Below, piece by piece: positions 19,300 to 30,695 of a stretch of 30,695 nucleotides of DNA. The stretch's first letter is position 1, and the number at the start of each line of letters is the position of its first letter. The DNA comes from a virus, in the IMG/VR virus record IMGVR_UViG_3300037485_000796, positions 1-30,695 of that record. The stretch is one strand, 5' to 3'. A model generated the notes under the pieces. It did no database searches and was not told the origin of the DNA. It saw only the letters and a list, made by a program, of their open reading frames with translations. Both the position numbers and the translations under genes were made by a program.

Positions 19300-19456
19300 G
19301 GGTCAAGATGTGCCAATTCACGCAGTTATTAACACGAACAAAGTCGGGCGAGAGTTTTATATCAGCGGGATTTGTTACAATACCGCTTTTATTCGTTATA
19401 TAGATAGTGGAGAAGTTATCGAAATTAAATTAGGACTATTAAAAAACTATTTATAG
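19274..19456 (+). CDS. Hypothetical small beta protein, 60 aa
   Basis: The ATG at 19274 is preferred over an in-frame TTG at 19244; it overlaps the DUF3310 gene by 26 bases. The product (MRAGSRIYKGQDVPIHAVINTNKVGREFYISGICYNTAFIRYIDSGEVIEIKL...) reads as five strands with a G-turn, a small SH3-like or Tudor-like barrel. No enzymatic residues are visible. Function unknown. Confidence 0.65.
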   Translation: MRAGSRIYKGQDVPIHAVINTNKVGREFYISGICYNTAFIRYIDSGEVIEIKLGLLKNYL

Positions 19457-19468
19457 CTTTGTAGCGAT

Positions 19469-19702
19469 ATGGTAAAACCTCACACTATAAGTACTAAAAT
19501 GTGGCTCGAACAAGAGGACGATGACCTTGGAATGGGTGGGAGCTTTGTCGAGTTTCGTTTAATGGTCGACGCAATCAACGGCTACTGGATCGAAAACGAG
19601 AGCGAGATATGCATCGTAGTACAAGGGACTGTCTACTATGTTGAGAATAACGAGGCCTTGCTGCTCTTTTTATCGGAATATTTTAACCCAATGCGGTTAT
19701 GA
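19469..19702 (+). CDS. Hypothetical acidic protein, 77 aa
   Basis: Begins MVKPHTISTKMWLEQEDDDLGMGGSFVEFRLMVDAINGYWIENESEICIVVQGTVYYV, a strand-rich acidic protein ending in a short hydrophobic helix (LLLFLSEYF). The stop overlaps the sigma-like gene by 4 bases (ATGA), so the two are translationally coupled. An accessory to the sigma-like protein is conceivable, but only from position. Confidence 0.68.
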   Translation: MVKPHTISTKMWLEQEDDDLGMGGSFVEFRLMVDAINGYWIENESEICIVVQGTVYYVENNEALLLFLSEYFNPMRL

Positions 19703-20127
19703 TACTTGATGAATTAGCCAAAAAAGATGCCCAATGGCGAAAAATGGCTTTTCAAATTTGCAAAGACAAAGACCTTGCAGATGAATTAGTGCAAGAGATG
19801 TACTTAAAACTATACCAAAATACCAATCTTATTAAAGATGGTTATATATATACAGTACTTAGGAATCTATTCTATGATTACACTAAATCTAATAAAGATA
19901 TTCTTATAGATTTTAGTAATATAGAGATAATAGATACTGAGTACGTGGAGCCTATTGACTACTTTCAGCTTATGAAAGGGTTAACCTGGTATGAAAGGAC
20001 GATGTTTGAACTCTCAACCTTAGTTGGGCAACGAGAACTCAGCCGTCAAACAGGCATCCATTTACAAACAATACACCGAATCTCTAAAAAAGTTAAAAAT
20101 CAAATCAATGGCAAAAAGAAGGACTAA
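19699..20127 (+). CDS. Sigma-70-family-like factor (ECF type)
   Basis: A 142-aa protein. Residues 12-62 resemble sigma region 2 (KMAFQICKDKDLADELVQEMYLKLY, then IYTVLRNLFYDYTKS, the core-binding and -10 recognition helices). Residues 95-135 form a helix-turn-helix like region 4 (LTWYERTMFEL... GQRELSRQTGIHLQTIHRISKKVK). Regions 1 and 3 are absent, as in ECF factors, and it is shorter than most. The gene is AT-rich compared with neighbours. It lies in the middle block, before late genes, so it is a natural candidate to read the non-host late element (1769, 22601, 29675). Related phage regulators may instead be anti-sigma or DNA-binding only. Confidence 0.7.
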   Translation: MILDELAKKDAQWRKMAFQICKDKDLADELVQEMYLKLYQNTNLIKDGYIYTVLRNLFYDYTKSNKDILIDFSNIEIIDTEYVEPIDYFQLMKGLTWYERTMFELSTLVGQRELSRQTGIHLQTIHRISKKVKNQINGKKKD

Positions 20128-20488
20128 AAAAGAAATGCAAGGCCTCGGCGATGTAATCGCTAATATTACCAACTCAGTTGGGATTGAGCCTTGTCAAGGA
20201 TGCAAAGAGCGTCAATTCGGACTGAATCGACTATTCAATTTTAAGAAGGTCAAAAGCGAAATGTCGCAACCCGATAAAGAGATGTATTTGGAATTTATGC
20301 AACTCAAAGGGCAACGCGTTGTCGATGGCAAACGAACTGAGCTGAATTTAGACGATATAAGCTACTTAAATGCTTTATACCTACATTACTTCGGTTTGGA
20401 CAATAGCAACTGCCCAACGTGCTCAAAAGTCCATGAGCAGATTATAAAAGACCTATTCAAACTTTACTCGTTCAGCGATGCCAATTAG
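20108..20488 (+). CDS. Cys-rich protein, possible zinc site, 126 aa
   Basis: The ATG at 20108 is chosen over one at 20024 that would lie deep in the sigma-like gene. The protein starts with a basic MAKRRTKKEM segment. Two Cys pairs, CQGCKER near residue 29 and CPTC near residue 105, are the only cysteines and could bind one zinc. A helical Tyr/Leu-rich region (LDDISYLNALYLHYFGL) lies just before the second pair. Overlaps of 20 bases upstream and 11 bases downstream place it in the same operon. The function is unknown; a nucleic-acid-binding accessory is possible. Confidence 0.7.
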   Translation: MAKRRTKKEMQGLGDVIANITNSVGIEPCQGCKERQFGLNRLFNFKKVKSEMSQPDKEMYLEFMQLKGQRVVDGKRTELNLDDISYLNALYLHYFGLDNSNCPTCSKVHEQIIKDLFKLYSFSDAN

Positions 20489-22600: not shown

Positions 22601-22629
22601 ACAAAACAACATTTTTCAGTTATATAAGT
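22601..22629 (+). promoter_or_regulatory. Late bipartite element, copy 2
   Basis: ACAAAACA (22601-22608), 7 bases, TCAGTTAT (22616-22623), 6 bases, ATG at 22630. Spacing is identical to 1769 and 29675. It heads the tail operon 22630-29603. Confidence 0.65.
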
Positions 22630-23322
22630 ATGAGAGTAGTAATCCCAACAAACCTAAGCGAGATAAAATTGTCTCAATACACACGCTACCAAAAGGTATT
22701 AAAGGACAACCAAGACGATGAGACCTTTGTTTGCATCCAAATGGTGGCCATATTTTGCAACCTAAGCGTGGCCGATGTTATGAAAATCCCTGTTAACGAC
22801 TTCGCGGAGATCGTTGAGAGCATCGCCAAGACGCTCGATCAACAACCGAAGCTCGTGCAGACGTTCAAAATGGACGGCGTGAACTACGGATTTATCCCGA
22901 ATCTCGATAAGATGACACTCAGCGAACACGCAACCGCGGACACTCTACTCGGAAACGATGAAAACATACCGCTATTAATGTCGGTTTTATATCGACCAAT
23001 CAAAAGAAAAGCAGGAGCATTTTATGAAATCGAGGAGTTTGATGGCGATGAGAGCAAAGCGGATTTATTTAAAGACGTGCGAATGGATGTTGTGGTTGGC
23101 TCAATGCTTTTTTTTTGGACTTTAAGCAAAGACTTATTGAGCAATACTCTATTGCATTTGGAGGACAAGGCAGCGAGGGAGGGAGTGAATTTGGAGGAAA
23201 TTTTGGCGAGCGGTGGGGTTGGTATCAGTCATTTGTTAGAATTGCGCGAGAACTTAGAATCCACGTTCGCGATGTGGGAAAGGAGCCACTTCATGAGTCA
23301 CTCACGTTATTATCATACCTAA
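22630..23322 (+). CDS. Tail assembly chaperone-like protein, unshifted frame
   Basis: A 230-aa protein, first of the tail operon. Residues 1-160 are helical and acidic (LSEIKLSQYTRYQKVLKDNQDDETFVCIQMVAIFCNLSVADVMKI... SVLYRPIKRKAGAFYEIEEF). At residues 160-162 the codons CTT TTT TTT lie in a run of nine T. The zero frame continues 68 codons to the stop at 23322, while the -1 frame reads into a 86-codon extension. Two products from one start are typical of tail assembly chaperones (lambda G/GT). The zero-frame C-terminus (DLLSNTLLHLEDKAAREGVN...) is less distinctive. Not a recognised enzyme; chaperone role is from genome logic. Confidence 0.72.
   Translation: MRVVIPTNLSEIKLSQYTRYQKVLKDNQDDETFVCIQMVAIFCNLSVADVMKIPVNDFAEIVESIAKTLDQQPKLVQTFKMDGVNYGFIPNLDKMTLSEHATADTLLGNDENIPLLMSVLYRPIKRKAGAFYEIEEFDGDESKADLFKDVRMDVVVGSMLFFWTLSKDLLSNTLLHLEDKAAREGVNLEEILASGGVGISHLLELRENLESTFAMWERSHFMSHSRYYHT
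23107..23115 (+). promoter_or_regulatory. Candidate -1 ribosomal frameshift site
   Basis: CTT TTT TTT in the zero frame: T TTT TTT is a perfect X-XXY-YYZ slippery heptamer inside nine T (23108-23116). Shifting -1 leads from F162 into the frame at 23115. A perfect 6-bp hairpin GCAATA-CTC-TATTGC (23141-23155) lies 25 bases downstream, farther than a usual stimulator. Confidence 0.65.
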
Positions 23323-29674: not shown

Positions 29675-29703
29675 ACAAAACATTTAAAATCAGTTATTAA
29701 GAT
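29675..29703 (+). promoter_or_regulatory. Late bipartite element, copy 3
   Basis: ACAAAACA (29675-29682), 7 bases, TCAGTTAT (29690-29697), 6 bases, ATG at 29704. Spacing equals copies 1 and 2; the last 6 bases are slightly different (TAAGAT instead of ATAAGT). It heads the protease/capsid unit. Confidence 0.62.
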
Positions 29704-30695
29704 ATGGAAACGTACGAAGTAAAATTTAACGAGGGAGATAACGACGGGGTGTACTGCATTTCTATGGTCTCCGATCCTGCAATAGGGGTGCAATTTGTAA
29801 CCTTATCAAAACAAAGAGAGTTAAAGCTCGCAACTATAAACGAGGAGCAGCGTATTTTGTTGGGTGCGGTGTTAATACCAAACCAACCGATTTATCGCAA
29901 TCAGGACGGACACGAATTTAACATCGTATTTCCCGCCGAAACGATTAAGCAAGTACAACAAAATTTCAGTCGTCAAGGATATCAGAATAACTCAACGATT
30001 GAACACTCAGGCGACAACGTCCAAGACGTGACTTTTGTTGAGACGTGGATTAAGATGGACGAGGTACATGACAAATCGGTACACTACGGATTTAACGAGC
30101 CAGTTGGTACGTGGTTTGCTGCAATGAAAGTGAACAACGACGAGATTTGGAACGACTACGTTAAGACAGGCAAAGTCAAAGGATTTTCGATTGACGGCGT
30201 TTTTGATTTAGAGAAAATTAATTTAAATAGTGAATATAGTATGAATTTAGAAAGCATCGTTAACGCGATAAAAGATGGTTTCGCCTCGGTAAAATTATCG
30301 AACGAAACCGAGCAAGTGGAAGTGACTATGTCTACCATGATGCTCAAAGATGGTGTTACCGTTTTAGAGGCTGAATCTTTTGAGGCAGGTGTTCCTGTTA
30401 TGATTGTAGCTGAAAACGGCGACAAAGTTCCTGCTCCAATTGGAGAACACGAACTTGAGGACGGACGAATTTTGGTAATTACCGAAGAGGGAATTATTGC
30501 CGAAATTAAAGACGCAATGGTTGAAGAGGTAGAAGTTGAAGAGGCTCCTGTTGAAATGACAAGCGAGGATCAATTTGCTGCATTGGTAAAATCAATCGTT
30601 ACCTCGATGAGTGTTGAGGTTGCAAAACAAATCGAATCGGTTAGAACTGAATTATCAGCTCAAATCGCTGAGGTTAAAACCTCTCAAGTAGAAGT
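29704..30695 (+). CDS. XkdF-like prohead serine protease fused to scaffold (5' part; continues at base 1)
   Basis: The 5' part of a 365-aa protein that continues at window position 128 after the 127-bp overlap. Residues 1-175 resemble the XkdF-type phage serine protease (Peptidase_S78_2): ILLGAVLIPNQPIYR at 51-65, IEHSGD with catalytic-type H101, FVETWI at 111-116 and GFSIDG with S162. It would mature the prohead by cleaving scaffold. From M180 (MNLESIVNAIKDGF, 30241) an acidic, beta and helical scaffold-like region follows, rich in Glu/Val and ending in the coiled coil at the window start. The in-frame ATG at 30241, after an AT-rich patch, could also start a separate scaffold, as with lambda Nu3. 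Confidence 0.85.
   Translation, partial: METYEVKFNEGDNDGVYCISMVSDPAIGVQFVTLSKQRELKLATINEEQRILLGAVLIPNQPIYRNQDGHEFNIVFPAETIKQVQQNFSRQGYQNNSTIEHSGDNVQDVTFVETWIKMDEVHDKSVHYGFNEPVGTWFAAMKVNNDEIWNDYVKTGKVKGFSIDGVFDLEKINLNSEYSMNLESIVNAIKDGFASVKLSNETEQVEVTMSTMMLKDGVTVLEAESFEAGVPVMIVAENGDKVPAPIGEHELEDGRILVITEEGIIAEIKDAMVEEVEVEEAPVEMTSEDQFAALVKSIVTSMSVEVAKQIESVRTELSAQIAEVKTSQVE
30569..30695. repeat. Right copy of 127-bp terminal direct repeat
   Basis: Identical to 1-127. Joining the copies gives a circular map with one continuous protease/scaffold gene and no break in any other gene. Confidence 0.95.

Follow-up and report, generated by a model that had tools for sequence, protein, structure and literature searches.

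Three structural-gene units of a virus record of 30,695 bases (IMGVR_UViG_3300037485_000796, positions 1–30,695; analysed over its whole length and hereafter called the window) begin with the same pair of short sequence blocks at the same distance from the start codon, which raises the question of what reads these blocks and where the mRNAs behind them start. The genes of the window include those for a portal protein, terminase, tape measure, protease, tail fibre, endolysin, helicase and a primase-like protein. Among cultured phages, those of Flavobacterium psychrophilum have the closest terminase (54% identity), followed by Bacteroides phages, and the predicted hosts are Bacteroidetes-type bacteria. 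One open reading frame (ORF; 1–233) enters the window from the left end and the protease ORF (29704–30693) leaves it at the right end; the record probably represents a genome that is nearly complete and was cut inside the protease/capsid unit, and by gene order the capsid gene, following the protease, is likely located at the start of the window.

Three Copies of a Bipartite Element Precede Structural-Gene Units

The element, ACAAAnCA-N7-TCAGTTAT-N6-ATG, is present without mismatch on the + strand at 1769–1800, 22601–22632 and 29675–29706, as a preliminary description made from the sequence had claimed. No further match with three or fewer mismatches was found on either strand of the window; at that tolerance the chance expectation is 0.08 matches (dinucleotide shuffles; maximum 1), and three matches occurred in 0 of 100 shuffles. 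The core AGTTAT lies at 1786–1791 in copy 1 (ACAAATCA / TCAGTTAT), at 22618–22623 in copy 2 and at 29692–29697 in copy 3, with predicted transcription starts at the A of the ATG (1798, 22630, and 29704, respectively), and copies 1 and 2 agree in all of their final 18 bases, again as described. Each ATG is the start of a real ORF on the + strand and, in agreement with the structural role proposed for these units, opens the first gene of one of them: the portal-to-lysis unit (1798–2106, 102 aa), the tail unit after the terminase (22630–23322, 230 aa, with weak tail-assembly-chaperone similarity) and the protease/capsid unit (29704–30693, Peptidase_S78_2, reaching the end of the record). Where a terminator was reported at 1741, there is indeed a terminator-like hairpin (1741–1762) with a T tract (1741–1766 in all, + strand) that abuts copy 1; it is conserved in relatives, and a terminator-type T tract abuts the element before the 1798 orthologue in all listed relatives.

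The −7 box of the Bacteroidetes housekeeping promoter, TAnnTTTG, is not found in any of the three copies, which bears out one half of the earlier contrast between the element and host-type promoters before early genes. The other half needs qualification: TAnnTTTG has 28 matches on the + strand of the window and 26 on the − strand, so most of them are background, and one box, at 19454, looks real by its position (see below). In loci with a sigma gene, these boxes form a minor peak at −12 relative to ORF starts (21 vs. about 3 at other offsets), and some early genes may also be leaderless. Matches to E. coli σ70-type promoters number 54 in the window (41.3 expected, sd 7.2), an excess too small to tell anything.

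Conservation in Related Phages

Relatives were collected from IMG/VR by terminase, sigma factor, portal and protease. The element precedes the orthologues of the three late genes in 87, 68, and 58 distinct contexts and is thus found at all three homologous positions, where the preliminary description had held that its absence would count against it. Exactly 6 bases separate the hexamer from the ATG in 86/87, 65/68, and 57/58 of these contexts, a few copies having an ATG displaced by 1–2 nt. When only reliable starts are considered, the element stands at 56 of 60, 33 of 40, and 35 of 41 starts of the three late genes and at 0 of the 464 starts of other genes examined; the coupled genes are without the A-rich tract (−15 to −10) that other genes carry. 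A weight matrix trained on the relatives only, the sites being picked by a pattern that fixes the ACAAA and GT columns by construction, scores the three copies of the window at 40.1, 34.6, and 31.0.

The 18 bases common to copies 1 and 2 could be taken as a sign of chance, or of recent duplication of a short sequence without function. The 0.08 matches expected by chance and the freedom with which the spacer sequence varies between relatives while the blocks are kept speak against this explanation, and conservation at homologous positions in divergent phages already refutes it; its probability is negligible. The element is almost certainly the on-switch of the late (particle-building) genes.

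An ECF-Like Sigma Factor Gene in the Same Genome

The preliminary description made no link between the element and a sigma factor gene of the same genome. This gene (19699–20127, + strand) encodes 142 aa, with region 2 at about residues 1–71 and region 4 at about residues 81–142. The ORF passes the Pfam gathering score for Sigma70_r2 (27.5 vs. 24 bits), and Pfam region 4 was not detected in it; the NCBIfam model TIGR02937 (ECF superfamily) matches it end to end with 25.7 bits, below the cut-off of 42.9, and the protein is therefore named ECF-like and not placed as an ECF member. Both shortfalls count against reading the element as a sigma promoter. An AlphaFold2 model (pLDDT 78, pTM only 0.40) has a region-2 bundle, a linker and a region-4-like helix-turn-helix. 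As modelled, the protein would have neither region 1.1 nor region 3, the two-region layout of ECF (group 4) sigma factors; PDB matches of the predicted fold are ECF sigma factors in transcription complexes, and the predicted region 4 matches σE region 4 on −35 DNA at 2.2 Å. The genome combines a sigma gene with a repeated, predicted promoter before late genes, as do phages of the 7-11 and phiEco32 type.

Homologues of the sigma factor occur in 278 of 440 loci, and a profile search found divergent ones also in relatives such as L059–L070; among cultured phages they were found only in P12024L and P12024S, in addition to unannotated fecal records. The sigma ORF of one relative, L104 (from 10001), encodes 177 aa, with an insertion of about 35 residues in the linker between the domains. 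An ORF at 20024–20488, conserved in 121 loci, overlaps the 3′ end of the sigma gene; its product might be a partner of the sigma factor or control it.

A Fourth Copy Upstream of the Sigma Operon

The earlier view that the window has no fourth copy proved wrong. A diverged copy without ATG lies at 19371–19405 on the + strand (TTTGTTACAATACCGCTTTTATTCGTTATATAGAT followed by AGT), with ACAATAC at 19377–19383, CGTTAT at 19394–19399 and a predicted start at A 19406; the weight matrix scores it at 28.8, while the next best site reaches 13.3 and 20 Markov-resampled windows peak at 12.9. It ends 63 bases upstream of the first gene of the sigma operon, a small conserved gene (19469–19702, + strand), before which stands the host-type −7 box mentioned above (TAGCTTTG, 19454–19461, + strand; homologous to TATATTTG in relatives).

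A copy occupies the homologous site in 52 distinct contexts. One subclade has it between genes, with a host-type TATATTTG promoter downstream of it or overlapping it; in the subclade of the window it lies inside coding sequence, which counts against a promoter role. In this latter subclade the seven codons that make up the motif (TGT TAC AAT and CGT TAT ATA GAT) are unchanged in 29 of 29 sequences, collected by a peptide pattern and not by one containing the motif, whereas most neighbouring invariant residues in the same sequences do vary synonymously. Two other sigma clades have a copy of the element right at the sigma gene or the sigma operon. The fourth copy is likely autoregulatory, the sigma factor activating its own operon. 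In some relatives, such as L142 (9713–9760), L107 (3820–3860), and L151 (2007–2050), AGTTAT overlaps the host-type TATATTTG (AGTTATATTTG) before the sigma operon, an arrangement that could serve both sigma factors.

Prediction of the Start Site and of Leaderless Late mRNAs

A T directly precedes the ATG at about 99% of the coupled sites, compared with 38% of other ATG starts in the same phages; this position was outside the pattern by which the sites for the weight matrix were picked. Of the 52 non-ATG copies, 48 have T(−1)A(+1) as well, while the bases that follow vary; these copies are related sequences, yet they include several different spacer hexamers. The A/T-rich bases from −2 to −5 vary more than T(−1). 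Transcription commonly initiates at a purine that follows a pyrimidine, so the T-A step is best read as the start site, coincident with the A of the ATG, and leaderless late mRNAs are predicted as a consequence. Genes with leaderless mRNAs have the −10 element 6–7 nt before the start codon, and AGTTAT ends 6 nt from the ATG in 208 of 213 contexts; a start at the A also fits the 6–9 nt past the −10 element at which mapped phage-sigma promoters begin (PMC8948821). Such mRNAs are unusual for Bacteroidetes-type hosts, whose mRNAs are mostly leadered: in F. johnsoniae, 87% of mRNAs have leaders of more than 10 nt (PMC6847099).

The same interval of 6–9 nt would permit starts from −3 to +1 (PMC8948821), and the few copies with an ATG shifted by 1–2 nt agree with a phage-sigma promoter that starts a few bases upstream of the ATG and yields mRNAs with a short leader. 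This version is rather unlikely, because T(−1)A(+1) is held in register even where there is no ATG and the bases from −2 to −5 are the more variable ones.

The element might instead act in translation, as the preliminary description had proposed in the alternative: a block in the mRNA leader would guide ribosomes to the ATG 6 nt downstream, in a role like that of the Shine-Dalgarno sequence. The strictly fixed distance to the ATG is what such an element would have, and hosts of this type are without Shine-Dalgarno sites (PMC6847099). However, the conserved non-ATG copies still keep the −35 block, the −10 block and the T-A start, for which reason translation was dropped as the main explanation; there are two blocks of DNA type at promoter spacing, a terminator T tract abuts one copy, and the element is missing from all other genes, which have an A-rich leader. 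Nor did a search for RNA structure or a riboswitch at the element find a fold better than shuffled sequences, an Rfam match or a tRNA. A translation-start element is thus very improbable, and the other proposal of the preliminary description, a late promoter with a nearly leaderless mRNA, is the one that the comparative evidence supports.

What Reads the Element

At each of the two positions that vary within the blocks, −12 (A/C) and −9 (T/C), 109 of 110 pairs of copies from the same genome are concordant, a level reached in 0 of 2000 shuffles; on the sigma tree, whose deep forks are unsettled, −12 changes about six times and −9 twice. Since unlinked sites change together, a trans-acting reader is implied, and the phage sigma factor is the obvious candidate. 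The concordance is support and not proof, as shared ancestry inflates the agreement of copies. The small sigma factor encoded by the phage probably reads the late element.

Variation in concert would equally call for a trans-acting reader if host polymerase with a host sigma factor were activated by a phage DNA-binding protein on ACAAAAC or AGTTAT, and other conserved phage proteins exist, such as that encoded at 20024–20488. A promoter of this kind is nonetheless distinctly unlikely: TAnnTTTG, the −7 box of the host, is missing from the element, the pattern goes with the presence of a sigma gene in the phage and is found at sigma genes themselves, and both the spacing and the start distance are ECF-like.

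The Putative Promoter Sequence Across Sigma Clades and Cultured Phages

More widely, the element follows the pattern AC-N15..17-[A/C]GTT-N8-ATG, which has an ECF-like −35/−10 layout and recurs in divergent sigma clades. The spacer of a bipartite ECF promoter is about 16 nt; it is 15 nt in the clade of the window (AC-N15-[A/C]GTT), one below the usual ECF spacing and to that extent a point against a sigma promoter, 16 nt in other clades and 16–17 nt in the cultured Nonlabens phage P12024L. Among the sites of other sigma clades, 61 show [A/C]GTT at −12, 51 of them with T(−1), and AC lies 16 nt upstream of [A/C]GTT in 20 of the 61, compared with about 4 at most other offsets. Counted over all ORFs, [AC]GTTA at −12 of the start occurs 134 times (vs. 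a mean of 12.4). In P12024L, whose sigma gene is annotated with Sigma-70 region 2, seven gene starts carry a copy, in most cases of the form TAAAAC-like-N16/17-CGTT, with CGTT 7–8 nt before the ATG.

For a comparison of loci with and without a sigma gene, the three informative loci of the latter kind (49 genes) were too small a sample, and phage FPSV-S2, which has a related terminase and no sigma match, served as an outside control in their place; the core is near −12 in 1 of 59 genes of FPSV-S2 vs. 7 of 45 in P12024L. No clear [AC]GTT-ATG set was seen in sigma clades 2, 9, 10, and 13 (e.g., L060, L442, L346, and L381), a further point against the sigma-promoter reading; the divergent sigma homologues of these clades may read another promoter sequence.

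Proposed Mechanism and Its Significance

In the mechanism proposed here, an early host-type promoter would first give rise to the small ECF-like sigma factor (19699–20127), which would redirect host RNA polymerase to AC-AAAAC...[A/C]GTTAT, with 15 nt from AC to [A/C]GTT. RNA synthesis would begin at the A of the ATG, 8 nt past GTT[T/C], and the mRNAs of the three late units (tail after terminase; protease/capsid; portal to lysis) would be leaderless or carry at most 1–2 leader bases. Through the fourth copy, beside the host-type promoter, the sigma factor would raise its own production, late genes and more sigma factor following together. For late promoters read by a phage ECF-like sigma factor, leaderless late mRNAs and a self-boosting sigma factor, we estimate a probability of roughly 0.83. 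We lean, with less assurance, towards the broader view that the late start is fixed at the A of the ATG throughout a group of Bacteroidetes-type phages whose ECF-like sigma factors are divergent, that the change from host to phage sigma factor would also be one from leadered to leaderless translation, and that self-activation of the sigma factor occurs, in some of the phages through a copy within the upstream coding sequence.

A gene switch of this kind, simple and open to testing, would apply to a large group of aquatic Bacteroidetes-type phages of which hardly any is in culture, and the prediction covers the reader (the 142-aa sigma factor binding to these sites), the promoter code and the start nucleotide, along with the timing of expression; the cultured phages P12024L and P12024S make it directly testable. 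If the late mRNAs are leaderless, they would offer a natural system for leaderless translation in a phylum whose ribosomes do without Shine-Dalgarno sites. For metagenomic phages, the promoter pattern can also help in annotating late units and in correcting start codons.

Comparison with Known Systems

Phage late sigma factors, leaderless phage mRNAs and −10 elements fused to ORFs are already known separately. No earlier description of this promoter was found in the open literature, a coverage outside which most subscription journals and all preprints lie; as far as that literature shows, the promoter code, the strict fusion of late promoters to the ATG across a Bacteroidetes-type phage group and the copy at the sigma operon are new.

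ECF promoters, such as those of σE and σW, combine a −35 element containing AAC/AC, a spacer of about 16 nt and a short −10 core with GT, and are read by two-domain sigma factors. The element of the window has the −35/−10 layout and the two-domain sigma factor in common with them, but its core is GTT-A/T and not the typical GTC or TCAAA, the spacer in its clade is 15 nt, and it is tied to the ATG. The Bacteroidetes housekeeping promoter (TTTG/TAnnTTTG) stands before the sigma operon, at 19454 and as TATATTTG in relatives, and can serve early genes, whereas the late element has a different −10 core and no TAnnTTTG.

A comparable arrangement is that of Salmonella phage 7-11, in which gp47, a phage sigma factor, works with host RNA polymerase on bipartite late promoters (GTAAtg-16-aCTA, with starts 6–9 nt past the −10 element); 7-11 differs in consensus, host and sigma lineage, and the accessible part of its description reports no fusion of promoter and ATG (PMC8948821). 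Phage phiEco32 also has a phage sigma factor, gp36, that reads promoters before middle and late genes; its promoter has a single element (tAATGTAtA) and gp36 is without region-4 homology, whereas the sigma factor of the window has a region-4-like domain. In Deinococcus-Thermus, a −10 motif about 6–7 bp before the ORF likewise gives rise to leaderless mRNAs, but there the housekeeping RpoD acts on cellular genes through TANNNT (PMC12340547), while in the window a phage sigma factor would act on late genes only. Thermus phage phiYS40 likewise has middle and late mRNAs without leaders; it belongs to another phylum, in which leaderless genes are common (PMC3594737), and the likeness considered here is that of the leaderless mRNA.
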